NCBI RefSeq assembly: GCF_014200595.1
Contig: NZ_JACHCG010000007.1
Span: 98,094-162,093 of the forward strand
Length of the DNA stretch: 64,000 bases
DNA from: Pedobacter cryoconitis
GTDB lineage: Bacteria > Bacteroidota > Bacteroidia > Sphingobacteriales > Sphingobacteriaceae
Direction: 5' to 3'
The position numbers and the translations under genes are program-made. Shown here piece by piece: positions 3,180-32,028 of the stretch. The notes beneath the pieces were generated by a model that saw nothing but the letters and a program-made list of their open reading frames with translations, was not told the DNA's origin and searched no databases. The stretch's first letter is position 1. The number at the start of each line of letters is the position of its first letter.

Positions 3180-4766
3180 ATGAACACAAATAGAAAAGAA
3201 CTCATAGGAAATATTGTTGATCCGGAAAAGGTTTGGGATGTAATTGTAGTTGGTGGTGGAGCAACAGGCTTAGGTGCTGCGCTTGATGCAGCCAGCCGGG
3301 GTTATCAGACCTTATTATTAGAACAAGCTGATTTTGCGAAAGGAACATCCAGCCGGAGTACCAAATTAGTCCATGGAGGCGTGCGCTATCTGGCGCAGGG
3401 CGATATCGGACTGGTTAGGGAAGCCTTATATGAACGTGGTTTACTTTTAAAAAACGCAGCCCATTTAGTGAAAAACGAATCATTCATTATTCCAAATTAT
3501 GAATGGTGGGGCGGTGCTTTTTATACTATAGGATTAACATTATATGATTTGCTGGCTGGCAAACTGGGCTTCGGCCGTGCCAGACATATCTCTAAAAAAG
3601 AAGTCATCAGCAAACTTTCTACTATACAGCCTGAACATTTATACGGAGGAGTAGTTTACCACGACGGACAGTTTGATGATTCCCGTCTGGCGGTTAACCT
3701 TGCGCAGACTAGTCTGGAACAAGGGGCTACGATTTTAAATTATATCCGCGTCACGAGTTTAATTAAAGACGCGCAGGATAAAGTTGCCGGTGTTGTGGCC
3801 ACAGATATAGAATCTGGCGTTACTTATCAGCTGAAAGGTAAAACGGTCATTAATGCGACCGGTGTATTTGTAGATGATCTTTTACAAATGGATAAACCGG
3901 GTAAAAAACCACTGGTCAGATCAAGTCAGGGTGTCCATTTGGTGATTGAGCGTTCATTTATGCCAGGTGAAGATGCGATCATGATTCCTAAAACGGATGA
4001 TGGCAGGGTTTTATTTGTTGTGCCATGGCATGATAAACTGGTTGTGGGCACTACAGATACCCCATTAGATCAGCATAGCCTGGAGCCGGTAGCGTTAGAG
4101 GAAGAAATTGAATTCATTATGCGTACAGCAGCAAAATACCTGGTTAAAGCACCAACCCGTAAGGATGTGCTGAGTGTATTTGCAGGTTTGCGCCCTTTGG
4201 CAGCGCCAGAAGACGGATCTTCTAAAACAAAAGAAATTTCGAGAAGTCATAAACTGATCGTAACTACATCCGGGCTGATTACAATTACTGGTGGCAAGTG
4301 GACAACTTACCGCAGAATGGGTGAGGACACGATTAATAAAGCGATAGAAGTTGGTAAATTACCAGTCCGTCCTACCAAAACAAAAGAACTTTCTATTCAT
4401 GGCAGCAAAGCAGATGTAAACCGCAATGATCACCTTTACATTTACGGAAGTGATGAAGCGGCCGTGTTAGCCTTGGGAGATGAAAATCCAGCCTGGAAAG
4501 AAAAGCTGCATGTACGTTTACCTTATCTTAAAGCCGAAGTTGTCTGGGGTGTCAGGCATGAAATGGCACGTACTGTGGAGGATATTTTAGCCAGAAGAGT
4601 AAGAGCATTATTCCTGGATGCACGTGCTGCGATTGATATGGCGCCAGCTGTAGCCAAGCTGGTAGCGACAGAACTTCAGTATGATGAAACCTGGGAAAAA
4701 GAGCAGGTTAAAACTTTCAGAAAACTAGCTCAATCTTATTTATTAGAACCTTACACGCCTGAATAG
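3180..4766 (+). CDS. glpD: aerobic glycerol-3-phosphate dehydrogenase
   Basis: This 528-residue FAD enzyme oxidises glycerol 3-phosphate to dihydroxyacetone phosphate at the membrane and passes electrons to quinone. The N-terminal dinucleotide fold VGGGATGLGAALDA (residues 24-37) is followed by the GTSSRSTKLVHGGVRYL signature of the GlpD family. The central DAO domain has the TGG(K)WTTYR motif near residue 370, and a C-terminal helical domain completes the usual length. It is the first gene after a well-formed promoter and is followed at 43 bases by the kinase gene, so the two are probably co-transcribed. Confidence 0.96.
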   Translation: MNTNRKELIGNIVDPEKVWDVIVVGGGATGLGAALDAASRGYQTLLLEQADFAKGTSSRSTKLVHGGVRYLAQGDIGLVREALYERGLLLKNAAHLVKNESFIIPNYEWWGGAFYTIGLTLYDLLAGKLGFGRARHISKKEVISKLSTIQPEHLYGGVVYHDGQFDDSRLAVNLAQTSLEQGATILNYIRVTSLIKDAQDKVAGVVATDIESGVTYQLKGKTVINATGVFVDDLLQMDKPGKKPLVRSSQGVHLVIERSFMPGEDAIMIPKTDDGRVLFVVPWHDKLVVGTTDTPLDQHSLEPVALEEEIEFIMRTAAKYLVKAPTRKDVLSVFAGLRPLAAPEDGSSKTKEISRSHKLIVTTSGLITITGGKWTTYRRMGEDTINKAIEVGKLPVRPTKTKELSIHGSKADVNRNDHLYIYGSDEAAVLALGDENPAWKEKLHVRLPYLKAEVVWGVRHEMARTVEDILARRVRALFLDARAAIDMAPAVAKLVATELQYDETWEKEQVKTFRKLAQSYLLEPYTPE

Positions 4767-4809
4767 AAAATACTCAGCGTCAATTAAACCAATATAAATC
4801 AATAAAGTT

Positions 4810-6324
4810 ATGGAAGATTACATTTTGGCTCTGGATCAGGGCACAACGAGCTCTCGTGCAATTATTTTTGATCATAAAGGACAGATTAAATCAACGGCAC
4901 AGAAGGAATTTACCCAGATTTTTCCACAATCAGGATGGGTAGAACATGACCCGAATGAAATTTGGTCTACGCAGGCCAGTGTAGCGGCAGAGGCAACGGT
5001 GAAAATAGGGATCAACGGTTCTAATATCAAGGCAATTGGTATTACGAATCAACGTGAAACGACCATTGTATGGGATCGTGAAACTGGTGAACCTGTTTAC
5101 AATGCGATTGTCTGGCAAGACAGGCGTACCGCAGAATTCTGTGATCAGCTTAAAAAAGATGGTAAGACTGATATGGTCCGTGCCAAAACGGGATTGGTAA
5201 TTGACTCTTACTTTTCAGGTACAAAAATAAAATGGATTCTTGATAATGTAGAAGGCGCGCGTGACAGAGCAAATAAAGGAGAGCTGGCATTTGGAACAGT
5301 AGATAGCTGGCTGGTCTGGAAATTTACAAGGGGCCATGTACATGTGACCGATATTACCAATGCAAGCCGTACCATGTTGTTTAACATCAGAACGGAGGAG
5401 TGGGATGATGAATTACTGGAAATGCTGGATATCCCAAAAAGTATGCTCCCTGAAGTTAAACAATCCAGTGAAATCTACGGAGAAACGACCACCACTATTT
5501 TCGCTTCAAAAATACCGATCGCCGGAATTGCGGGAGATCAGCATGCTGCGCTTTTCGGACAGATGTGTATTGAAAAAGCCATGGTTAAAAACACTTATGG
5601 AACCGGCTGTTTTATGCTGATGAACATTGGTGATGAATTCATGGAATCAAAAAATAACTTATTGACTACAGTTGCCTGGAAAATTAACGGTAAAATACAA
5701 TATGCCTTTGAAGGAAGCATCTTCATTGGAGGAGCAGTTGTACAATGGCTCCGTGATGGCTTAGGTGTGATTAAAAAATCTGCTGATGTAGAAAAACTGG
5801 CTGCAAGTGTTAAAGACACGCAGGGAGTTTATTTTGTCCCTGCATTTGCTGGTTTAGGTGCGCCTTACTGGAAACCTGATGCAAGAGGTACTATTGTAGG
5901 ACTGAGCAGAGGCAGTACATCTGCACATATTGCGCTTGCTGCACTGGAATCTATAGCCTACCAGACCAGGGATGTTTTAAAAGCAATGGAGGCTGATGCT
6001 GGAATGGAAATTAAAGAATTAAGAGTCGATGGCGGGGCAACTGCAAACGATCTGCTGATGCAATTTCAATCTGACTTGCTGAATTGTAAAGTGATCCGTC
6101 CGAATGTAGTGGAAACTACAGCTTTAGGAGCTGCTTATTTAGCGGGATTAGCAGTTGGTTTCTGGGATAGCGTAGAAGAGATTCAACAGTTATGGAAGTC
6201 TGAAAAAGAGTTTGTTCCTACAGGAGATCAGACGGTGATTAAAAAGGGGATTAAGAATTGGAAGAGAGCTATTCATGCTGCACAAAGCTGGAATGAAGAG
6301 TTACCTGATGCAGATTCAAACTAA
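4810..6324 (+). CDS. glpK: glycerol kinase
   Basis: The 504-residue FGGY-family kinase phosphorylates glycerol with ATP, trapping it as the substrate of the upstream dehydrogenase. Visible signatures are [15 protein letters not shown] at the N-terminus (phosphate-1 loop), NQRETT and WQDRRTA (glycerol site), [13 protein letters not shown] near residue 240, and [16 protein letters not shown] near residue 408, the adenosine-binding part of the C-terminal lobe. Length equals that of other bacterial glycerol kinases. The gene lies in the glpD-glpK-glpF order, 24 bases before glpF. Confidence 0.97.
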
Positions 6325-6348
6325 TTATTCACCTTTAATTTTACCAGA

Positions 6349-7077
6349 ATGACTCCATTCATAGCAGAACTTATAGGTACAATGTTACTTATACTTTTAG
6401 GCGATGGCGTAGTAGCCAATGTCGTATTAAATGATACTAAAGGAAATAATAGCGGGTGGATGGTTATTACCACTGCCTGGGGACTGGCAGTTTTTGTAGG
6501 GGTAACAGTTGCCGGCCCTTATAGTGGTGCGCATTTAAATCCTGCGGTCACTATCGGTCTTGCAATAGCCGGAAAATTTGCCTGGGCAAGTGTGCTCCCT
6601 TATATAGCTGCACAGTTAATAGGAGCGGGGATGGGTGCATTCCTGGTTTGGGTGATGTATAAAGACCATTTTAACAAAGACAATGATCCGGCAGCTATGC
6701 TGGCCTGTTTTTGTACCGGCCCTGCTATCCGTAATTACACTTCAAATATAACCAGTGAAATTATCGGTGCATTTGTATTGGTATTTACAGTTTTCTATAT
6801 CACCGGAGCTGAAATTACACCCACTAAAATACCTGTTGGTTTAGGCTCTGTCGGAGCTGTTCCTGTTGCTTTTCTGGTTTGGGTGATTGGCCTTTCATTA
6901 GGAGGGACTACCGGATATGCGATTAACCCGGCACGTGATCTGGCGCCCAGAATTATTCATGCTTTAGTACCTATCAAAGGGAAGGGCACCAGTGACTGGA
7001 CTTATGCCTGGATTCCTATTCTCGGTCCGGTTGTGGGGGCAGCGATAGCAGCTTTTCTTTATTTACAGCTTCACTAA
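6349..7077 (+). CDS. glpF: glycerol facilitator, MIP/aquaporin family
   Basis: The 242-residue channel has six hydrophobic spans and both pore half-helices, GAHLNPAVT near residue 66 and YAINPARD near residue 190. The Asp directly after the second NPAR box is typical of glycerol-conducting aquaglyceroporins rather than water-only aquaporins. It should let glycerol diffuse into the cytoplasm, where GlpK traps it. The gene is 24 bases downstream of glpK and in the same orientation, consistent with one operon. Confidence 0.95.
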   Translation: MTPFIAELIGTMLLILLGDGVVANVVLNDTKGNNSGWMVITTAWGLAVFVGVTVAGPYSGAHLNPAVTIGLAIAGKFAWASVLPYIAAQLIGAGMGAFLVWVMYKDHFNKDNDPAAMLACFCTGPAIRNYTSNITSEIIGAFVLVFTVFYITGAEITPTKIPVGLGSVGAVPVAFLVWVIGLSLGGTTGYAINPARDLAPRIIHALVPIKGKGTSDWTYAWIPILGPVVGAAIAAFLYLQLH

Positions 7078-7117
7078 TCAGCAGTTAAACAAAACAGAAC
7101 TTCTTAAATAGATTTTT

Positions 7118-7894
7118 ATGAAAATGATTTATAAAGGTAGCCTTGGGGCTATACTAGGGCTATGCCTTTGCCTTTCTGCGGTGGCTCAGGACTTGACAAC
7201 GCCTAAAACTGATACTGTCGCAGTGAAAAAATATAAACCCTTTAATGTGAATCTGCAAGTGCGTAATTTATACTTGTGGCGCGGATTTAAGGTTTCAAAC
7301 AGTCCGATCACTGATGTAGATATGCATTATACCACTAAGGATGGAAGCTTTTCTGCTGGTTTTTGGGGCGGGGCCGGTTTTAACGGGGAATACAAGGAAT
7401 TCGATTATTATGTGAGTTATGTTAAAAAGGGTTTTAACTTTTCGGTTTGGGATATTAACAACGTAACGGATTTCCCTAATGCTAACCTGTTCGACTATAA
7501 AAGAGCTACTACTTCCCACTTTATTGACGTAACTGCCGGATATCAATTCGGAGACGCCTTTCCGATCAGTATTAACTGGAGTACAATTGTACAAGGCAGA
7601 GATACGCATGTAACGAGTAATGGAAGTCTGGCTAATAATTATTCCAATTATGTGGTGCTTGATTACAGAGTCTGGAAAGAGGAAGGAACGAATGTCCATC
7701 TTTTCGCAGGTGGCGGATTTGCGTTTGGCAGAGATGAAAATTTTTATGGTTCTAAACCCAATGTTGTCAATGCTGGTGTCACCTTAAATAAAGACCTGGT
7801 AGTTTTCAGTCACCATATGCCAATTGCAGCAACTGCAATGTTTAGCCCTGAGCATAATTACGGGGCGATCCAGTTAATCGTCAACGCGTTCTAA
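7118..7894 (+). CDS. outer-membrane beta-barrel protein at the end of the glp operon
   Basis: The 258-residue product begins with a signal peptide ending AVAQ (residue 24). The rest is alternating polar/aromatic strands with a repeated Tyr/Phe pattern and ends in a phenylalanine (VNAF), the usual last residue of outer-membrane barrels. I cannot name a specific family. The position, 40 bases after glpF and before a terminator, suggests an outer-membrane route or structural partner for glycerol or glycerophosphodiester uptake. That role is inferred from context only. Confidence 0.72.
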   Translation: MKMIYKGSLGAILGLCLCLSAVAQDLTTPKTDTVAVKKYKPFNVNLQVRNLYLWRGFKVSNSPITDVDMHYTTKDGSFSAGFWGGAGFNGEYKEFDYYVSYVKKGFNFSVWDINNVTDFPNANLFDYKRATTSHFIDVTAGYQFGDAFPISINWSTIVQGRDTHVTSNGSLANNYSNYVVLDYRVWKEEGTNVHLFAGGGFAFGRDENFYGSKPNVVNAGVTLNKDLVVFSHHMPIAATAMFSPEHNYGAIQLIVNAF

Positions 7895-7921
7895 CAAAAA
7901 ATCTTTTTTTCCTGTAAACAC

Positions 7922-7950
7922 AAAAAACCAGCCGGAAGGCTGGTTTTTTT
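7922..7950 (+). terminator. intrinsic terminator of the glp operon
   Basis: CCAGCC (7928-7933), a GGAA loop and GGCTGG (7938-7943) form a hairpin flanked by an A-run and seven Ts. It lies 28 bases after the outer-membrane protein stop codon and would end the glpDKF transcript. Confidence 0.9.
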
Positions 7951-8179
7951 GTAGTGTAAAATATATACATTACTGTTGTGTGTGTTCCATAGGTAGATGA
8001 TTCACAATTCAATATTAAGCTTATCAATTGACTTATCATTTCATTATTACACCAACACCCGTTTCCCCTACGTGAATGTGCTAAATAATTGATATTTATG
8101 TTGATAAATCGATAATTTTAAGCGCAAAGTGGTAACATTCGTGGGTTTTGTTACATGAAATATTTGGAAGATTCAGATT

Positions 8180-8548
8180 TTATCGTGGTATGGTCACTGA
8201 CATCCTCCCATCTTTAGTACCTCCAAAAAAGCTATTGGAACGTTTATCCAGTTTCTGACCTTTAAATTTGATGATGATTTCGCAATCACAGAACATGGTG
8301 TATATGATATCAATTTTGTCTCCCGGAAGAACATCTTCAGTTTCGTAATCTCCCGTTCTTCTCTCGCGGACGCTTAATATATTTTTTGCTGTTCTGTTAT
8401 TAAAAACGTCAATGACATAAGGGTCTCTGGAATTATAAGGATCATTGTTGCTCACTTCTACTTTTAATCTATTGGAATTCAAGTCTTCTTTTTTGCATCC
8501 GGTCAGAAAGAATAGCAGGATGGCTGAAATTGTAATCAGGTATTTCAT
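8180..8548 (-). CDS. small lipoprotein of unknown function
   Basis: The 122-residue protein has a lipoprotein signal peptide with the lipobox LTGC (Cys at residue 18) followed by KKEDLNSN. The mature part is short, mixed alpha/beta and charged, with no motif I recognise. It stands alone between two genes on the other strand. A 7-bp inverted repeat (TTGTAAT at 8561-8567, ATTACAA at 8580-8586) lies just before its start and could be a regulator site. No function is assigned. Confidence 0.7.
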   Translation of the reverse strand: MKYLITISAILLFFLTGCKKEDLNSNRLKVEVSNNDPYNSRDPYVIDVFNNRTAKNILSVRERRTGDYETEDVLPGDKIDIIYTMFCDCEIIIKFKGQKLDKRSNSFFGGTKDGRMSVTIPR

Positions 8549-8700
8549 TGCGTGTATAAATTGTAATTAATGTGTTTTGATTACAATAAAGACGATAAAT
8601 GTGTGAATACCCCTATATCTATTGGTAAAGCTTTTAAGGCAGCACGTGAAGCAGGTCTTTAAAATACCTTCTTGTAAAATATCTATCTTTGTTAAGACAT

Positions 8701-8946
8701 ATGCAACGGCAAACAGATATATTACACACCATTTTGTCCATCGCTATACAGCGGGGGCCTGAAAAAAGTACATGCCCATCTGAAATTGCTCGCATGCTAT
8801 TTCCTGAAGACTGGCGAAAACATATGAAAAACGTAGTCGACGCGGCTATTGATTTGCATAATCAAGGTAAAGTTGTGATTACACAAAAGGGGATACCAAT
8901 TGATGTGAATCAGATTAGGGGCCCTATCCGCATTAAAATTATTTGA
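8701..8946 (+). CDS. DUF3253 family small protein
   Basis: The 81-residue product resembles the DUF3253 family, which has a pattern of RG..KT.CPSEVAR followed by W and a basic helix, then a beta-wing ending in RGP(I/Y)R. Here the matching pieces are RGPEKSTCPSEIARMLFPEDW and IRGPIRIK. The shape suggests a small winged-helix-like fold; biochemical function is unknown. The ATG at 8701 is preferred to an upstream TTG at 8689 because the family starts close to this point. Confidence 0.75.
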   Translation: MQRQTDILHTILSIAIQRGPEKSTCPSEIARMLFPEDWRKHMKNVVDAAIDLHNQGKVVITQKGIPIDVNQIRGPIRIKII

Positions 8947-9062
8947 ACTTCATGTTTTGCAATGAAGTAAACTTAAACAAACAGTCTTAATTGGTGATTT
9001 ACGATGTTTTTTTCTTTTATCAGGCAGCTTGAGTAAATTGCGGATAATTATATAATTGAACT

Positions 9063-9650
9063 ATGTCCAATTTTGAAGTGTTTTTCGATTACATTCAGGA
9101 AATATCAGGCAAACTGCTTTCAGAGAATGATAAACATTTGTTGATGGTACATTTCAAGCCAAAAAAACTTCGAAAACGGCAATACTTTTTACAGGAAGGA
9201 GACGTATGCAAATATATAGGGTTTGTTATCAAAGGATCTGCCAGGACCTTTACAGTAGATGAAAAAGGGCATGAACATATACTGAAATTATCTGTGGAAA
9301 ATTGGTGGCTGGCCGATTTTGAAAGCTTTTACCTGTTAACGCCAAGTCGCTTTAATATTGAAGCGCTGGAAGATTTGGAGGTTCTGCAATCAACCAACAC
9401 CCAAATTGAAGAGTTTCTTAAGCATATACCTGCCTTTTCAGCGATGGCGAACGTAATCAATCAAAATTACACCATTGCAAACCAGAAAAGAATGCAAGCT
9501 GCTATGAGTTATACGGCTGAAGAGCGTTACGAGGATTTGATTAGCAATTATCCGCATTTTCTAAAACGGTTCCCGCAAAATATGATCGCTTCTTATCTGG
9601 GTTTATCCCGGGAAACCTTGAGCCGGATAAGGAAAAACTCTTTTAAATAG
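9063..9650 (+). CDS. Crp/Fnr family transcriptional regulator
   Basis: This 195-residue protein has an N-terminal cyclic-nucleotide-binding-like beta barrel (about residues 25-115, with QEGDVCKYIGFV matching the family's entry strand) and a C-terminal helix-turn-helix (IASYLGLSRETLSRIRK). It is the shorter Bacteroidota subtype and lacks the Arg/Ser pair that contacts cAMP in the enterobacterial protein, so the ligand is unclear. The recognition helix keeps the R-E-x-x-x-R pattern that reads GTGA half-sites in Crp. Two such sites lie downstream, before the SDR gene at 9901, which is a likely target. Confidence 0.85.
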   Translation: MSNFEVFFDYIQEISGKLLSENDKHLLMVHFKPKKLRKRQYFLQEGDVCKYIGFVIKGSARTFTVDEKGHEHILKLSVENWWLADFESFYLLTPSRFNIEALEDLEVLQSTNTQIEEFLKHIPAFSAMANVINQNYTIANQKRMQAAMSYTAEERYEDLISNYPHFLKRFPQNMIASYLGLSRETLSRIRKNSFK

Positions 9651-9758
9651 ATATTTATCTTTCAACTCAAATATGCAGTTGTAATCTTTCTGACTTTCTG
9701 CTGCCTGGTTTTTTCAGGTGTCTTAAGTTTCTTTTATACAATTAGTTATCCGATGAAC

Positions 9759-9848
9759 GTGATTCAGATCACAACCATGGATTATCATAAATCACAGGCA
9801 TTTAGTGATTCATGTCAATTAACAATTCGTTAAGGGGCTGCATCTTTG
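9759..9848 (+). promoter_or_regulatory. two Crp-like palindromes and a promoter ahead of the SDR gene
   Basis: Site 1 is GTGA-TTCAGA-TCAC (9759-9772), a perfect Crp-type core. Site 2 is GTGA-TTCATG-TCA (9805-9817). CATCTTTG at 9841-9848 differs from the TAnnTTTG element by one base, and no TTTG element sits at the usual upstream distance. Site 2 takes that place, centred about 40 bases before the expected transcription start, as for class II Crp activation. The sites are read directly; the regulator and the activation mode are inferred. Confidence 0.55.
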
Positions 9849-9900
9849 GATATACTTCAGAGCGGAAAATATGCCTGAAGAATATTAACAATTAGAAATC

Positions 9901-10659
9901 ATGAGTATATTAGAAAACAAAGTAGCGGTAGTTACAGGTGCAGCAAAAGGAATAGGTGCGTCTATTGCAAAACACTTTGCAGCAGCAGGCGCAAAAGTAG
10001 TTGTGAATTATGCCTCAAGTAAAGAAAGTGCAGACAGGGTGGTTAAGGAGATAACTGATAAAGGAGGCCTGGCCATTGCCGTACAAGCCGATGTCTCGGA
10101 CCAAGCCGATGTGATCAGGCTATTTGAAGAAACCAATACGGCTTTCGGCCCGTTGGATATTTTGGTAAATAACGCGGTCCATCAGGGATACTTACCTGTT
10201 GAACAGATATCGGTGGCAGCTTTTCATCAGCATTTCAACGTCAATGTTCTGGGGCCTATATTGACTATCCAGGCATCGTTAAAAGCATTTGGCGATAAGG
10301 GCGGCAATGTCATCAATATCAGCTCGGGTGCAAGCAAATACCCTCTTCCGGGCGCCTCGTTGTACTCTGCCACTAAAGCGGCATTAGACGCTATTACGAT
10401 TGCATTATCGAAAGAACTGGGTGCAAAGAACGTTCGTATCAATTCTATTTTGCCGGGTGCGACGGATACAGAAGGTGCGGCTAGCGCAGGTGTAACCTCT
10501 GGCAGTGATTACGAAAAGATGTTTATTGCCAAAACACCGCTTGGCCGCAGAGGTCAGCCCGAAGATATTGCGAAAGCTGTAGTATTTCTTGCTTCCGATG
10601 ACGCAGCCTGGATTACAGGTGAACAAATTAGCGTTTCGGGTGGAATGTATGGTTTTTAA
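9901..10659 (+). CDS. short-chain dehydrogenase/reductase (FabG-like)
   Basis: The 252-residue classical SDR has the cofactor motif TGAAKGIGASIA (residues 12-23), NNA near residue 90 (NNAVHQG instead of the usual NNAG), the catalytic Ser in NISSGAS and the YSATK active site, and ends with the usual GGMYGF-like tail. It most resembles 3-oxoacyl or sugar/alcohol reductases using NAD(P)H. Substrate is unknown. It is a single-gene unit downstream of two Crp-like sites and a Crp/Fnr regulator gene, so it is probably induced by that regulator. Confidence 0.85.
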   Translation: MSILENKVAVVTGAAKGIGASIAKHFAAAGAKVVVNYASSKESADRVVKEITDKGGLAIAVQADVSDQADVIRLFEETNTAFGPLDILVNNAVHQGYLPVEQISVAAFHQHFNVNVLGPILTIQASLKAFGDKGGNVINISSGASKYPLPGASLYSATKAALDAITIALSKELGAKNVRINSILPGATDTEGAASAGVTSGSDYEKMFIAKTPLGRRGQPEDIAKAVVFLASDDAAWITGEQISVSGGMYGF

Positions 10660-26097: not shown

Positions 26098-28929
26098 CTA
26101 AATAGGTTGAGGCAAATTTTGATTCTGTAACCTCCCAATTTTCATCTTGATCCGTTTAGTCAGGAAATTATAAATGATCATTTCATGCATGCGCTGGTCA
26201 TTGTGAAAAATTCTGTTGGCATGCATATGGAACAGGTCTGAAAGCATATTATTTTTCTCAGTTTCCGGGCAGGCATTTAGACTATTCAAAAATGCATGCA
26301 CTGTTTGCTCAGCTTTTTTCTGCTGTAATTTAGTCGGTACTATAGTCAGCGCGTCAATGTTAAAATCTTTATAACTCTGATTAATCTTTTTGGTCGAATC
26401 AGACTGGACATTAAATTCAGCAGCAAAACTGGTGTGCATCCTTTCTGCAAATTGTAATTGTTGCTCCATTGTATACAGGGCTCTGTACATTACATTTTCG
26501 ATCAAGCTAATAGATAAGATATAGAGATCATTAATCTCAACCGGTCTGGCAATAATCGTTACTACATAATCACTATCTGCTGCGAAACATTTTTCTGCCA
26601 GATCCATCCTTTCCAGTCCATATCTTTCAGTTTCCTGCCGGTAAGTTTTAAGTTGCAAATCTGCAACGACTCCCGAGGTGATGTAAGGTGCAACAATTTG
26701 GGAGAGACTTGAAATCAGCTCATATCCGTCTTTAATTTCCTTTAATTGAAATCTTAAACGGATATGATCGGCGGGATCATTGTATCGGATAAAGAACCAT
26801 TTTTTTATTTTCTTTCTCCAGGGACGAATAAAATACCTGTTAATTTCAAGAAGAATGGCATTGGATTTAGAAGGATGACAGTAGATTTCGAAATAAAGCC
26901 ACTCCTCTCCCGGTAAATATAAATTAGAAAAATACTGCATGTTGTTCCAGGTGCCTCTGAACGGATAAGGCAGGTAAAGCTGTTCTGTATGTTCCAGGTT
27001 GATAATGAATTCCGGTAAATAAGGTGCATTATTTTCATCAGTTACCTGGGGCAGGGCAGAGATAAAAGCCTCTTCAATATATAAGTCTGTTTTATTCTTA
27101 CAGAAAAGCGCAAATGAGTGCATGTCTTCTTGTATTTCGGGGTTAAAAACCAAGGTTTGATCTCCGTCTCCACCTTTAAAAGGCTTTTGTAAATTGATTG
27201 TGTTCAGCCAATCGTACAATTTATTTAACAACTGGTTGCTATTAACTTCCTGACAGATGGATTTGGGAACCAGCCATTTTTCCGGACATAGAATCACATT
27301 TTTATACTGTACTCTTGGATAATGTAACAACCCTGGGAAAATGTTAGAGAGGTTGATACCTAAACTGGAATGCAGACCCTGATGTTGTAAGTCCGAAAGG
27401 AACCGGTAAACTGCGAGATCCGAACGCGCATAATTATAGGCTGAAGCTAGTTTTGGAATAAGCCTTTTACCATACTTTTCAGAATGAAGTATCAATTCTT
27501 CACCTCGCACGCTAACCATAATATCATTGAGGGCTAAAATATGTTTACTTTCGGGCCAGCTTAAAATGGGTAATTCATAATTGTAAATTGCTTTTCTCCG
27601 GTTAATATTGTCTGCATGTTTTTCAATCTGATAGCCAATATCAAAGAATAAGATATCGGGATTAGCTTCCTGTTCAATCTGAACAAACCGGTGACCTATT
27701 GCCGTAACTTCTTCACTTGCTAAAGAAAACCTTCCTAAAAGCGAATTTGCTGTACTTCCGCCAATATTTTCTATGATGATGTTATCTTCTGTGCATTGCA
27801 GCAATACGCTGATCGTATTGGCGACGGGGTGCTGTGAATTTGTTCCCTGCTCCTTAAAATCATACAACTGGATAGTTTGATGTTGTATCATTTGGTTCAG
27901 AATGAACTGATGTAAAGGGGTATAAGCTATCTGGTGTATTTGTTTGTATGCCCTGTTCTTTTTCAAATCCTGAATTAACAGGCCTTCGTCTTTATTGAGG
28001 CTCATAGACCGGTAGCCGATACCAATTTCGGGATCCATGGCAATCTGGAGCGGAACTTCTTTGTGTTCAAACTTCTTCACGAATTTGTGCCTGAAATCAT
28101 CCAGCGAAGCACTTTTACTAACCTCTGTATGCTTAGAAAGGAAGTCGGTCAGTTCTGCCAGCACCTGGAGCCTTCTCTCTGATAACTGGCCTTTTATTCT
28201 TTTTCTTTCCGAAATAATGTAATCGTTTTTCTTTTCTGGTTGTGAATACCCAATCCGTCCATAGTAATCAGGGCCGATAATATTCGGTTGAAAATTGGTA
28301 ATTAAAAGCTGAAAGGTGACAAGCTGCTCCAAAAAGTAGGCGGTCATTGCTTTGCTCAAACTATATTCATTGCGCAGAAAATCTTGTATTTCTTCTACAG
28401 TTCGTTTGGTGCGGCAAAAATCCAGGGTAAGCTGGGTGGTTTCTTCTGCATCAATCGCTGACAGTTCAAAGGAGCCATCTTCGGTATTTAAGTAGCGTAA
28501 TTCCCCGCCTCCGATATAGGCAGTGGTGTTGGTTGTGAGGAAGCGTGCATGGTTGATTAACCATTTCGGATCAGTGTTGAAGTGTTCCTTTTCCTGCCAG
28601 TTGATAAAACGATGGACAATGTGTTTTTTTGACAGGGTGACTGGCTCAGTACTGTTTTGATTTTCAATAGGAATGATTGAAAATGCAGCGAAATTCCCAT
28701 AGGGTGTAGCCCGGAATTTTGCCCGGTTGAAATACTTCCAGATGGTAAATTTGATTTTGGGATCAAGCGCTTTTAAGTCGGAATATTCATAGGCGCTGAT
28801 CATTTCGAAAAAGGAAGGGGAAGACTCATGGATATAATCTTTGAGTTCATCCCAGACGTTACAGAGTTCTTCTGTGTGGGAAAATACTGGCGTACGGGTG
28901 ATACTGACGGGGGAGATCGTTAATTTCAT
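26098..28929 (-). CDS. full-length lantibiotic dehydratase (LanB)
   Basis: The 943-residue protein spans both LanB parts. The N-terminal glutamylation domain carries the family mark FRATPYGNFAAF (residues 72-83). The C-terminal elimination (SpaB_C / thiopeptide-type) domain from about 680 has WFFIRYNDPADHIRLRF and the ERYGLERMDLAEKCFAADS segment. Such enzymes use glutamyl-tRNA to activate Ser/Thr of a leader-bearing peptide, then eliminate glutamate to give dehydroalanine and dehydrobutyrine. It lies 66 bases after the kinase gene in the same orientation. No cyclase (LanC) gene is nearby. Confidence 0.9.
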   Translation of the reverse strand: MKLTISPVSITRTPVFSHTEELCNVWDELKDYIHESSPSFFEMISAYEYSDLKALDPKIKFTIWKYFNRAKFRATPYGNFAAFSIIPIENQNSTEPVTLSKKHIVHRFINWQEKEHFNTDPKWLINHARFLTTNTTAYIGGGELRYLNTEDGSFELSAIDAEETTQLTLDFCRTKRTVEEIQDFLRNEYSLSKAMTAYFLEQLVTFQLLITNFQPNIIGPDYYGRIGYSQPEKKNDYIISERKRIKGQLSERRLQVLAELTDFLSKHTEVSKSASLDDFRHKFVKKFEHKEVPLQIAMDPEIGIGYRSMSLNKDEGLLIQDLKKNRAYKQIHQIAYTPLHQFILNQMIQHQTIQLYDFKEQGTNSQHPVANTISVLLQCTEDNIIIENIGGSTANSLLGRFSLASEEVTAIGHRFVQIEQEANPDILFFDIGYQIEKHADNINRRKAIYNYELPILSWPESKHILALNDIMVSVRGEELILHSEKYGKRLIPKLASAYNYARSDLAVYRFLSDLQHQGLHSSLGINLSNIFPGLLHYPRVQYKNVILCPEKWLVPKSICQEVNSNQLLNKLYDWLNTINLQKPFKGGDGDQTLVFNPEIQEDMHSFALFCKNKTDLYIEEAFISALPQVTDENNAPYLPEFIINLEHTEQLYLPYPFRGTWNNMQYFSNLYLPGEEWLYFEIYCHPSKSNAILLEINRYFIRPWRKKIKKWFFIRYNDPADHIRLRFQLKEIKDGYELISSLSQIVAPYITSGVVADLQLKTYRQETERYGLERMDLAEKCFAADSDYVVTIIARPVEINDLYILSISLIENVMYRALYTMEQQLQFAERMHTSFAAEFNVQSDSTKKINQSYKDFNIDALTIVPTKLQQKKAEQTVHAFLNSLNACPETEKNNMLSDLFHMHANRIFHNDQRMHEMIIYNFLTKRIKMKIGRLQNQNLPQPI

Positions 28930-28995
28930 ACAATAATGTTTAGATATTTAATAAATAATTAAACAATAAGATACTGGTTTAACGCAAAGGTTTAG

Positions 28996-30057
28996 CTAGT
29001 CTTTCAGCTTCAGCACGAGCTCCACTTTAAATAATTTACCTGCCATTTCGTGACTGAATTTGTAGTTGTTTTTATAGAACTGATCTAACCTGGAGGTGAT
29101 ATTTGCCAATCCTGTTTTACCACTTTCTACATTGCTGTCATAATTTGGAAGATTGCTGGTTTGAATGGTTAAATATTCAGCTGTGGATTCTACCCTGATT
29201 TCTGCCGGGTAATCCTTGTCGAGCAGGTTTCCGTGTTTAAAAACGTTCTCTACCAGAGTTAGTAAAATGATGGGAATGATTGTAACCTGAGCGTTATTGA
29301 GTTGGGTAATGTAATTGATATGCAAGGTATGATTGAACCGCAATTGGTTCAGCTTGATTATGTTGTCAACTTGTTCCAGCTCTTTGGCAACGAGAATGGT
29401 TTGGCTATTGTTTTCCAGAGCAAACCCCATGATGCTTGATAATCTCATAATAGCTTCGTTCGCTTCTTCCGGTTTTTTCTTAGCCGCGTATTTGATAAAA
29501 CTTAAGGTATTGAATAATAAGTGAGGGTTGATTTGTGCACGCAGGAAATCTTGTTCCGCACGCAGAAGTTCGTTTTGCAGTTGCTCGTTTTCTATGGTTT
29601 TGGTTAGTGCCGCTTGTCTTTTTCTGTGGTAGCGAAGAAAAATATAATACGCAGAGGCATAGAGTATAAAATAGATGCCGCGCCAAAGTGTAATCCCGAA
29701 AAATTTACTGTTGAAATATTCAATTTTTATGGCATCACCAGAGAATGCCATTATCATACAGCTTATCGCTACGGCAATTGTACAATAAACTACAAGCTCC
29801 AGAGCTGTTAATAAAGGAATGAGCCATAGATAAGATATTGACTTGGTTGATATGCGTGGTAGTACTAGCTGTGAATGAACATAAAACAGGATAATGTTCA
29901 ATAAATAGTATAATACTGTGTGCAGTAAGGGACGCGGATTTCCGTATATAATTTCTAAAAGACTTATTTCATACAAGATGAATATAAACCAGCATAACAC
30001 ATGTATACGGATGGTTTTTGTCGGTTTTAACAGGTCTTTATATAATAATTTTAGCAT
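28996..30057 (-). CDS. LytS-type sensor histidine kinase
   Basis: The 353-residue kinase has four or five N-terminal membrane segments (residues 18-165), a short coiled coil, and the His_kinase domain with INPHLLFNTLSFIKYA, whose His is the phosphorylation site. A C-terminal HATPase follows, with LVENVFKHG as the N-box and KTGLANITSRL as the G-box. The start at 30057 is preferred: the longer frame from 30141 adds a hydrophobic run and overlaps the peptide gene on the other strand. The partner is the LytTR regulator at 30357. Together they probably control the lanB-like locus. Confidence 0.85.
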   Translation of the reverse strand: MLKLLYKDLLKPTKTIRIHVLCWFIFILYEISLLEIIYGNPRPLLHTVLYYLLNIILFYVHSQLVLPRISTKSISYLWLIPLLTALELVVYCTIAVAISCMIMAFSGDAIKIEYFNSKFFGITLWRGIYFILYASAYYIFLRYHRKRQAALTKTIENEQLQNELLRAEQDFLRAQINPHLLFNTLSFIKYAAKKKPEEANEAIMRLSSIMGFALENNSQTILVAKELEQVDNIIKLNQLRFNHTLHINYITQLNNAQVTIIPIILLTLVENVFKHGNLLDKDYPAEIRVESTAEYLTIQTSNLPNYDSNVESGKTGLANITSRLDQFYKNNYKFSHEMAGKLFKVELVLKLKD

Positions 30058-30101
30058 GTAATATAATAAAGGTGTGTAGGGTTTTTTGACGGGATAACAT
30101 T

Positions 30102-30127
30102 GGCTATAAACTAAAAAAAATATAGCC
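30102..30127 (+). promoter_or_regulatory. 7-bp inverted repeat abutting the precursor start codon
   Basis: GGCTATA (30102-30108) and TATAGCC (30121-30127) are perfect arms 12 bases apart; the right arm touches the ATG at 30128. It may be an operator or an RNA hairpin that limits ribosome access. It lies in the 70-base region shared by the peptide gene and the kinase-lanB unit. Confidence 0.5.
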
Positions 30128-30274
30128 ATGAGTTTGACCAAAAAGAAACTAACACTGACAAAAAAAACCTTGTTTTTATATCAAAAACAATCTGATCGTC
30201 GCCCTACAGTTGCACCAGCTGATCCGACCGGGACATTTGCAGGAACTAGTATGTCAGGATTCGTACAAGTATAA
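30128..30274 (+). CDS. lanthipeptide-like precursor peptide without cysteine
   Basis: This 48-residue open frame is too short for ordinary gene calling. Residues 1-20 are Lys/Leu/Thr-rich (KKLTLTKKTL), the kind of leader I associate with Bacteroidota class I lanthipeptides. The C-terminal part is Pro/Gly-rich with six Ser/Thr (T27, T34, T36, T40, S41, S43) and no Cys. It lies between the LytTR regulator and kinase genes on the opposite strand and ends 28 bases before a strong terminator. If the LanB modifies it, the product would carry dehydro-residues but no thioether rings of its own. Translation is not proven. Confidence 0.68.
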   Translation: MSLTKKKLTLTKKTLFLYQKQSDRRPTVAPADPTGTFAGTSMSGFVQV

Positions 30275-30302
30275 ATCTCCTGAAAAATGAATCTATCTAA
30301 GT

Positions 30303-30357
30303 ATAAAAGTGTGTTTCTGAACTTGATGATGAAACACGCTTTTATATTTTAATTTTT
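30303..30357 (+). terminator. terminator of the precursor gene (possibly bidirectional)
   Basis: Arms 30303-30317 and 30331-30345 pair over 15 bp around a 13-base loop and are followed by a T-rich run (TATTTTAATTTTTT). It ends the short precursor transcript and faces the LytTR gene end. Confidence 0.85.
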
Positions 30358-31076
30358 TAAGATTTCAAAGTATGTTTCCTTAGAAAATCGAGGAACACAC
30401 TTTTGTACTTGTCACCTATCTGATAACTTTGTCCCGGTGCCAGTCTTGCAATATTTCCATCCACACGATCCAGGTAATTCAAAGAGATAATAATCGACTT
30501 GTTAATCCTGAAAAAGATATCCATGATCTGTAATTTATCTTCCATTGCTTTAAGACCAATATAAGTTATTTCATGACCAGTAGTGGTATGGATCATGATA
30601 TAATTTAACATCGCCTCGATATATACAATATCACTATATTTTATCTTTATAAAACTGCTCTTCTGACCGCCTTTAATAAACAAAAATTGTTGTTCGTCCC
30701 TTTGCAGTTTAATAATATCCTGATGCTTAAGTGTCAGGTCTTCCACTTTCTGTGTAAAGGAAATATAACTGACTGGTTTAAGCAGGTAGCCATCGGCTTT
30801 CGCTTGAAAAGCTTCCGGAGCATAACCCCTGTGCGCAGTTACATAAATCAGGAAATGGCAATAGTTATTATATATTTCAGCAGCATCTATTCCGTTAAGG
30901 ACAGCCATACTGATATCTGAAAAGATAATATCAACATGTTCTGCTTCCTGCAAATAGGCAATCGCCTGCCTGGCATCCGGAAAACTCTGTACTAAGTTCA
31001 GATGAGGCACCTGTGCAATCAACTCACTTAACTCATCAATAGCATGAGGTTCGTCGTCAATAACAATACAGCTCAT
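30357..31076 (-). CDS. LytTR family response regulator
   Basis: The 239-residue regulator has a receiver domain with the acidic pair in VIDDEPHA and the phospho-acceptor Asp in FSDIS (about residue 57), and a C-terminal LytTR DNA-binding domain with FIKIKYSDIVYIEA. LytTR proteins bind pairs of short direct repeats spaced by about two helical turns. Just such a pair lies upstream (31180-31210). Start at 31076 is taken over the ATG two codons before it. It is paired with the LytS-type kinase and flanks the precursor gene. Confidence 0.88.
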   Translation of the reverse strand: MSCIVIDDEPHAIDELSELIAQVPHLNLVQSFPDARQAIAYLQEAEHVDIIFSDISMAVLNGIDAAEIYNNYCHFLIYVTAHRGYAPEAFQAKADGYLLKPVSYISFTQKVEDLTLKHQDIIKLQRDEQQFLFIKGGQKSSFIKIKYSDIVYIEAMLNYIMIHTTTGHEITYIGLKAMEDKLQIMDIFFRINKSIIISLNYLDRVDGNIARLAPGQSYQIGDKYKSVFLDFLRKHTLKS

Positions 31077-31179
31077 TATCATACGCTATTATTTTTATTG
31101 TTTAAGTTCTAATCAAAGCACATAAATATACAAGCATTAATGTAATGATAGATGCTTTTTAGTGAAATATGACCCTTTT

Positions 31180-31210
31180 ATATAAAATTATACCCGCTTA
31201 ATATAAAATT
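31180..31210. promoter_or_regulatory. direct repeats at 21-bp spacing, candidate LytTR site
   Basis: ATATAAAATT occurs at 31180-31189 and again at 31201-31210, exactly 21 bp apart, each followed by a C-rich run (ACCC, TTCCCC). The spacing is that of LytTR-type binding sites. They lie 104 bases ahead of the LytTR gene in the 31083-31425 gap, which otherwise shows no gene. Confidence 0.45.
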
Positions 31211-31425
31211 TTCCCCTTCCATAGGTCTGACACATACCTTGGGTTTAAACAACTAAATTAATTGTAAGACGCTATTGCGACATATCTTTTTTTTTACATA
31301 TCACATCAATTATAACTTGCCTGGTTATATAGATAAATACTGATGAAGAACAATAAATGGAACTGCATGAGTATGCAAATTGCTACGCTCATGCACATTT
31401 CATTTATAAGGAAGCAACATCGACC

Positions 31426-32028
31426 ATGAAAAATATCCGACCTATGAAAAACAAGGAAAATACAAAAAGAAAGTTATTAGATGCAGTAGGTGTGATCCTT
31501 AAAAAGGATGGCTTTGGCGGATTGGGTGTTAATAAAGTAGCTAAATTAGCAGGGGTTTCAAAAATCCTTATTTACCGTTATTTTGGAGATTTCAATGAAC
31601 TCGTGAAATCTTGCGTAGTGGAAAATAACTTTTGGACAAACAATCTGACAGAGCCAGCTGCGTCTAAAGATCCTTCGCTTTCGATGCAGCAATCAATCAA
31701 TGTGCTGCTCAAAGAGAGGTTTAATTATTTTTATGACCATTGTCAAATGCAGGCAGCATTATTAAATGATACTTCTGATTACAATATCATAATTAAGAAA
31801 AGAGCTGGCAGCAACCGGTCACTCAAAAGAAAATTACAGCCAGCAAAGGAGCAGGGGTTTGATAATTGTATTACTTATTTTAATATAGTTTCTACGCTGC
31901 TTGTTGCAGGTACTAACCATCTTGTTTTAGGAAGTCCTGTTGAAACTAAAAATGAATTGCAGCATTCTATGGAAAAGATTGTAGAATGGACATTCGGAGA
32001 TGTTATAAACGATAAGGATTACAATTAA
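31426..32028 (+). CDS. TetR family transcriptional regulator
   Basis: The 200-residue protein has a TetR-type N-terminal helix-turn-helix (GGLGVNKVAKLAGVSKILIYRYFGDFNELV) near residues 28-57 and a helical ligand domain. The start at 31426 places the helix-turn-helix at the usual distance and is preceded by AAGGAAG; a longer frame from 31357 exists. It is divergent from the LytTR gene across 349 bases. The ligand and targets are unknown. Confidence 0.8.
   Translation: MKNIRPMKNKENTKRKLLDAVGVILKKDGFGGLGVNKVAKLAGVSKILIYRYFGDFNELVKSCVVENNFWTNNLTEPAASKDPSLSMQQSINVLLKERFNYFYDHCQMQAALLNDTSDYNIIIKKRAGSNRSLKRKLQPAKEQGFDNCITYFNIVSTLLVAGTNHLVLGSPVETKNELQHSMEKIVEWTFGDVINDKDYN

Follow-up and report, generated by a model that had tools for sequence, protein, structure and literature searches.

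What does a lantibiotic-type dehydratase make when the precursor beside it has no cysteine, and what is the product for? The question is raised by a locus in a 64,000-nucleotide stretch of Pedobacter cryoconitis DNA (the window), which belongs to a genome of 6.35 Mb. Here a very short gene for a cysteine-free peptide stands with the genes of a lantibiotic-type enzyme (LanB) and a sensor–regulator pair, and the unit is conserved across many Pedobacter and Mucilaginibacter species. We propose, with a probability of about 0.55, that this unit is a self-contained autoinduction circuit, in which a peptide dehydrated by LanB, with no ring closure, would signal to the adjacent LytS/LytTR pair.

Layout of the locus

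Three genes of the unit lie on the minus strand, in the order LytTR regulator, PF06580 kinase and LanB. A 48-codon gene is placed on the opposite strand between the regulator and kinase genes. It is divergent from the kinase gene, across a gap of 70 bases, and convergent with the regulator gene. Inspection by eye had suggested a terminator between peptide and regulator genes, but a scan did not find one. The features are as follows.

26098..28929, minus strand: LanB, 943 aa, a full-length lantibiotic dehydratase that has both the glutamylation and the elimination domain (Pfam PF04738 and PF14028; TIGR03891; NisB catalytic positions conserved in 81 LanBs)
28996..30057, minus strand, probable extent: LytS-like histidine kinase with an N-terminal membrane domain (PF06580; in 21 of 21 neighbourhoods)
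30128..30274, plus strand: cysteine-free precursor peptide, 48 aa (family alignment; profile matches in 76 of 81 loci; pS/pN)
30357..31082, minus strand: LytTR response regulator (PF00072 and PF04397; in 21 of 21 neighbourhoods)
30040..30069, plus strand: LytTR-type direct repeat (9-12-9), 5' of the peptide gene and overlapping the kinase start (same position in relatives L060-L068, 0 or 1 mismatch)
30095..30102, plus strand: -7-like box TAACATTG in the promoter of the peptide gene, 25 bases past the repeat (box scan)
31180..31209, plus strand: second repeat, between the regulator and the TetR-type gene (in L060-L068, 0 to 2 mismatches)
31235..31242, plus strand: -7-like box TACCTTGG, 25 bases past the second repeat, facing the TetR-type gene (box scan)
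31444..32028, plus strand: TetR-type regulator, a possible circuit output in the window's clade, its role being inferred (PF00440; longest ORF from 31357)

A longer kinase ORF, to 30141, needs a TTG start and overlaps the peptide gene, so the ATG at 30057 is the more likely start. The N-terminal part of the kinase contains three hydrophobic segments above threshold. The nearest named relative of the window LanB is that of P. cryoconitis DSM 14825 (L060), at 89% identity.

ORF coordinates and Pfam matches confirm the first-pass annotation, which had placed a LanB gene, a LytS/LytTR pair and a 48-residue peptide gene together. The interval it quoted, 28930..31076, does contain the peptide and kinase genes; LanB lies just outside. 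Its statement that the window has neither LanC nor an exporter gene also holds: LanC matches are on other contigs, and a domain search gave no ABC_tran match anywhere in the window.

The peptide family, its enzyme and the missing LanC

The window peptide has no cysteine and carries six Ser/Thr within its last 22 residues, as had been described. Its leader lacks a GG motif. The peptide has no Pfam or NCBIfam match, and 0 of 22 family members match an NCBIfam model. Of 301 genomes sampled within the same family group, 150 contain LanB relatives, and 20 neighbourhoods were fetched from relatives. Among the matches listed, small Lys-rich ORFs occupy the same place in these neighbourhoods. An alignment of 22 relatives gave a leader consensus K-L-x-K-K-T-x-F-V-Y-K and a core consensus T-D-P-T-T; the cores are Thr-rich and often TDPTT-like.

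Conservation of the peptide between the regulator genes of relatives had been set as a test beforehand, and it was found. A profile built from the 22 members detected at least one precursor in 76 of 81 LanB loci (the window and 80 named loci, E up to 0.1), a figure that is partly circular, as several loci are from the same species as profile members. In all 76 of these loci the peptide and kinase genes are divergent, and in 74 the peptide gene has the kinase gene on one side and the regulator gene on the other. Four of the remaining five loci show a similar peptide by eye, with one or two cysteines; in L129 no such peptide was found by profile or by eye. Against the database, the profile matched 167 proteins at E<=0.01, and among the best 120 of these the named proteins are nearly all 'hypothetical protein'. 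The peptide gene family is therefore large and unannotated.

Codon comparison points the same way. Compared with its counterpart in P. cryoconitis DSM 14825, the window peptide gene has a pS of 0.38 and a pN of 0.09, with a pN of 0 across the first 20 codons. Nonsynonymous change was lower in the first 20 codons than in the rest in 20 of 20 species pairs shown, these being the pairs with pN below 0.35 out of 45 in all. We regard it as practically certain that the 48-codon gene is real. Seven loci (L087, L090, L094, L097, L098, L113 and L131) have tandem precursors, with five to eight profile matches per locus. Whereas their leaders differ, their cores are the same or almost the same, which suggests concerted evolution or dosage.

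The LanB matches both Lant_dehydr_N and Lant_dehydr_C and aligns by sequence with NisB, whose structure is known. Equivalent positions were counted by hand along this alignment. NisB R83, R87, R784, R786, E823, R826 and H961 correspond to window R69, R73, R724, R726, E766, R769 and H901, residues that do not vary among the 81 LanBs; R69 is a glutamylation position and H901 an elimination position. R786, E823 and R826 also have roles in NisB catalysis. The position of NisB T89 is kept in 79 of 81 LanBs, and that of Y80 (window Y66) is invariant in 14 of 14. At the position of NisB D121 the window has Asn, as do 13 of the 81 LanBs overall. In NisB, Y80F and H961A abolished dehydration, R83A and R87A reduced it, R784A reduced it slightly and D121A had little effect, according to part of the published account (PMC4341554). 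The window LanB thus looks active, as judged from its residues. The peptide is very likely the substrate of this adjacent enzyme.

Cysteine is rare in the family. It occurs in 13 of 132 distinct profile matches and lies in the core in seven, from five loci (L099, L109, L111, L128 and L133); the other six have it either in the leader or within an extension upstream. Four further cysteine loci (L124, L130, L132 and L136) fall outside the profile and were seen by eye. With the core-cysteine matches and these four loci, we describe the family as mostly, not wholly, cysteine-free. The four are more distant LanB loci, from Mucilaginibacter pineti, Pedobacter frigoris, a Bacteroidetes MAG and Taibaiella, respectively. 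Their peptides have a similar leader and one or two cysteines, one of them near the C-terminus. Thioredoxin-like genes lie near the variants in L130 and L124, and 506-aa ORFs with no assigned identity near those in L132 and L136. Within the peptide family, either loss or gain of cysteine may have occurred.

LanC is frequently missing as well. A LanC-like gene was absent in 49 and present in 27 of 76 genomes with this LanB (all but the window's own with a best listed LanB match above 500 bits, each at least 96% complete). Seven of the eight genomes behind cysteine-containing cores have no LanC, and the same holds for the one genome searched in which no peptide was recognised. Two LanC matches occur in the window's genome, both on other contigs and each near another LanB; there is none in the window or on its contig. 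The product is quite likely to lack rings in most species. The LanC-free genomes and the cysteine-free state of most family cores weaken the first-pass option of a thiol partner supplied from elsewhere, and likewise that of a LanC in trans. No exporter, leader protease or immunity gene is conserved across the 21 neighbourhoods. The genome encodes eight C39 peptidase domains, none of them on the window's contig.

Three other LanB loci of the same genome are of interest here. In L234 (G000:C3:547000-565000) there is a second LanB-kinase-LytTR group, with genes at 4127-4288(-), 4649-5779(+), 5822-6547(+), 6815-6964(+) and 7453-10614(+). It includes two short Lys-rich, Thr-rich peptides, one cysteine-free and the other with a single cysteine, with TTTGGTCGAAG and ACATATTTGT upstream of both peptides, and is possibly a parallel circuit. 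A third LanB-kinase-LytTR group, L233 (G000:C1:3058000-3073000; 3788-3928(-), 4047-5117(+), 5123-5845(+) and 5829-8825(-)), has a 46-aa cysteine-free ORF divergent from the kinase gene. L236 (G000:C1:340000-359000) forms a natural contrast. Its five tandem precursors (6906-8063(+)) have a GG motif and several cysteines and adjoin a LanB, a LanC and a C39 peptidase match, as in a conventional class I lanthipeptide cluster.

Peptide–sensor covariation and promoter repeats

No genes accompany the peptide more constantly than those of the kinase and the LytTR regulator. LanB, the PF06580 kinase and the LytTR regulator are the sole families common to all 21 neighbourhoods, and the next commonest family occurs in 6. 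The orientation of LanB varies (facing the kinase in 60 loci, downstream of it in 12). The first-pass annotation was right about a cysteine-free leader–core precursor at a LanB locus, which proved to be conserved in relatives; absent from its account were the constancy of the kinase/LytTR pair and a signalling circuit, to which promoter repeats and peptide–sensor covariation point.

The kinase membrane domain diverges much faster than the kinase domain. An argument for a hypervariable receptor from this divergence was dropped, as one of two control kinases was equally fast. At kinase distances of 0.03-0.06, 0.06-0.10 and 0.10-0.15, sensor divergence was 0.35, 0.36 and 0.49 in the module kinase, and 0.37, 0.49 and 0.55 in the first control, a LytS-type paralogue (30 orthologues). 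The second control (16 of 17 loci usable) was slower in the same bins (0.07, 0.15 and 0.28, from few pairs). Fast sensor divergence alone is ordinary.

The covariation of this domain with the peptide is a separate matter. Across 73 loci, with LanB, kinase-domain and regulator distances removed, core distance was correlated with membrane-domain distance (partial Mantel r 0.364, p 0.0005); core against LanB gave 0.09 (p 0.035). With fast-site controls, the core–sensor r was 0.234 overall, 0.594 within one 32-locus clade and 0.173 among the remaining 41, and core against fast LanB sites was weak (r 0.129, p 0.001, all loci). The leader–sensor correlation was 0.142 over all 73 loci (p 0.001), 0.106 and not significant in the 32-locus clade (p 0.09), and 0.015 in the other 41.

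Shared ancestry inflates Mantel-type tests. Therefore, we used 36 pairs with disjoint tree paths. Here the core–sensor partial r was 0.686 (p 0.0001), with 0.008 for core–kinase domain and -0.20 for core–LanB. Leader–sensor gave 0.514 (p 0.0004), and core–regulator gave 0.311 (p 0.03) in a pair test made before one peptide copy was corrected. Among 83 pairs with a kinase-domain distance below 0.1, the mean core distance was 0.22 where sensors were similar versus 0.44 where they were dissimilar, while LanB distances were alike in the two groups (0.22 and 0.25). L102 and L135 have a LanB distance of 0.06 and a regulator distance of 0.00, yet their sensors are 0.49 and their cores 0.43 apart. There are counter-examples: in L094/L113 and L087/L109 the cores are 0.13 and 0.07 apart and the sensors 0.40 and 0.41. 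In these comparisons, peptide divergence tracks the kinase membrane domain, not the kinase domain or LanB. The exchange of one DNA block carrying peptide and sensor could mimic their co-evolution and would make the leader covary with the sensor too; because the leader-control designs disagree, such exchange may account for the pattern.

The promoter region adds a link to the regulator. LytTR sites are 9-bp repeats, mostly 12 bp apart, just upstream of a promoter, as stated in part of a published description (PMC6193735). The window peptide gene is preceded by ATATAATAA-12-ATATAATAA, with a period of 21 bp. Upstream of the peptide gene in 76 loci, this period has the largest excess among periods 10 to 33, with 7.43 matches of 10 versus 6.27 in shuffles (z 6.7). 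The signal stays without the window's clade (7.15 versus 6.21, z 10.4; 66 loci, periods 16 to 27).

The pattern ATATAAWAW-N12-ATATAAWAW has two perfect copies genome-wide, and both flank the module. Within the window, at up to two mismatches, it occurs twice versus 0.32 expected, and 6 of 100 shuffles reach two. As the pattern was derived from the window's own two sites, independent support comes from relatives. Nine of these hold ten perfect copies, nine of the ten at the module, and three of the reversed pattern. At one mismatch the genome has 5 matches to the pattern versus 10 to its reverse, and for this reason we claim no regulon targets beyond the module.

The Bacteroidetes -7 box is TAnnTTTG. 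A -7-like box stands exactly 25 bases past the repeat at 19 of 20 promoters (ten genomes; peptide and TetR-facing promoters). The shared repeat and box spacing suggest that one regulator acts on both the peptide and the TetR-type promoters, and the LytTR regulator is likely to act at these repeats. Since the first repeat overlaps the kinase start, an effect on the kinase gene is also possible. An ORF of 183-223 aa occupies the TetR-type position in 9 of 9 close relatives, and the TetR-type gene is a possible output of the circuit in the window's clade.

Proposed mechanism, alternatives and known systems

The mechanism that we propose starts from what is read in the sequences: gene set and order, LanB catalytic residues, cysteine-poor cores, LanC absence, repeats and covariation. 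The adjacent LanB would recognise the 48-aa precursor via its conserved leader and dehydrate core Thr and Ser through glutamyl intermediates. Because no LanC would act and cysteine is usually absent, the product would be a mostly linear, dehydrobutyrine-rich peptide. Once matured, this peptide would be the ligand of the neighbouring LytS-like kinase; that the kinase senses it is a view to which we lean slightly. The kinase would activate the LytTR regulator, which would bind the paired repeats and increase transcription of the peptide gene (positive feedback). In the window's clade, the regulator would also raise transcription of the TetR-type output gene. Dehydration, leader removal, export, ligand binding, the direction of regulation and the TetR-type gene as output are the steps that we infer.

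Could the locus be read otherwise? As a chance reading frame or a regulatory RNA, the 48-codon ORF would be expected to look as it does in two respects, being short and without a Pfam or NCBIfam match. Family-wide conservation and synteny contradict this, as does the restrained nonsynonymous change in its first 20 codons, and we give the idea almost no weight. PEARLs are LanB-like proteins without an elimination domain; the window LanB has one (Lant_dehydr_C), with key positions conserved throughout the 81 LanBs. Stable glutamylation, or a PEARL-like tRNA-dependent amino acid addition, in place of dehydration is thus very improbable here, although LanB-like enzymes with such chemistry exist, as part of PMC11212132 describes. 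A lanthipeptide completed elsewhere, with LanC in trans or the thiol of glutathione or another peptide closing thioethers on the dehydrated core, would suit the 27 LanC-bearing genomes, the two LanCs of the window's genome and the minority of cores with cysteine. It is at odds with the 49 LanC-free genomes and with the lack of LanC behind seven of eight cysteine-containing cores, and both LanCs of the window's genome lie near other LanBs. We consider completion elsewhere improbable.

The product might also be a dehydropeptide, made without LanC, whose role is external (as an antimicrobial or otherwise); the pair would then sense something else, for instance envelope stress or competitors, and only switch production on. 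LanB products are mostly known as antimicrobials, and cores that differ between species, with several near-identical copies at some loci, suit a bacteriocin too. However, no exporter or immunity gene is conserved in the 21 neighbourhoods, the peptide covaries with the kinase membrane domain, and, judging by the promoter repeat, the peptide gene may itself be under feedback. An external role is unlikely on this balance, and we favour a LanB-dehydrated signal read by the adjacent pair. More tentatively, and with some doubt, such signals may be widespread pheromones of the Gram-negative Bacteroidota: short, usually cysteine-free, linear dehydroamino-acid peptides made by LanB alone, each with an adjacent LytS/LytTR reader, with species-specific alleles of peptide and kinase membrane domain that change together and with several parallel circuits per genome.

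A literature search by title and start of abstract, with the Pedobacter lusitanus lanthipeptide papers outside its scope, gave no description of the peptide family. Genome mining anchored on LanC is blind to such loci. A large survey began from LANC_like matches, according to part of its text (PMC7268733). Should LanB suffice to make the product, nature would have a simple way here to linear dehydropeptides that bear reactive alkenes; should the kinase bind that product as its ligand, a Gram-negative phylum would have a peptide pheromone circuit.

How does the locus compare with known systems? As in thiopeptides and goadsporin, LanB-type dehydration would proceed without LanC. Those products need azole-forming enzymes, whereas no further family occurs here in more than 6 of 21 neighbourhoods. 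Pinensins and the lanthipeptides of P. lusitanus NL19 share the Bacteroidota phylum, a LanB enzyme and a Lys-rich leader with this locus; unlike the window peptide, they have cysteine and are made with LanC. The P. lusitanus peptides are known to us via citations in part of PMC12328550.

A leader–core precursor is conserved beside LanB, as in LanB-dependent RiPPs. The glutamylation and elimination domains are those of a class I lanthipeptide enzyme; LanC, a core cysteine and a dedicated exporter or processing protease are missing from the cluster. Nisin, a LanB-modified peptide, can likewise induce its own synthesis via a two-component pair, and its NisB is of the same family as the window LanB. 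The window locus differs in having no LanC, NisT or NisP and no core cysteine, and LytS/LytTR replaces NisK/NisR. In agr and com systems, too, a small precursor adjoins a membrane kinase and a LytTR regulator. Here a kinase with a membrane sensor and a LytTR regulator stand next to the precursor, and LytTR-type repeats, as read in the DNA, precede its promoter, with the 9-12-9 spacing (from part of PMC6193735) seen at signal gene promoters of the agr/com kind. The differences are that the maturation enzyme is a LanB, the phylum is the Gram-negative Bacteroidota and the unit has no exporter. Taken together, the locus appears to behave like an autoinducing peptide circuit with an enzyme of the nisin kind, from which two defining features of class I, LanC and the core cysteine, are absent.
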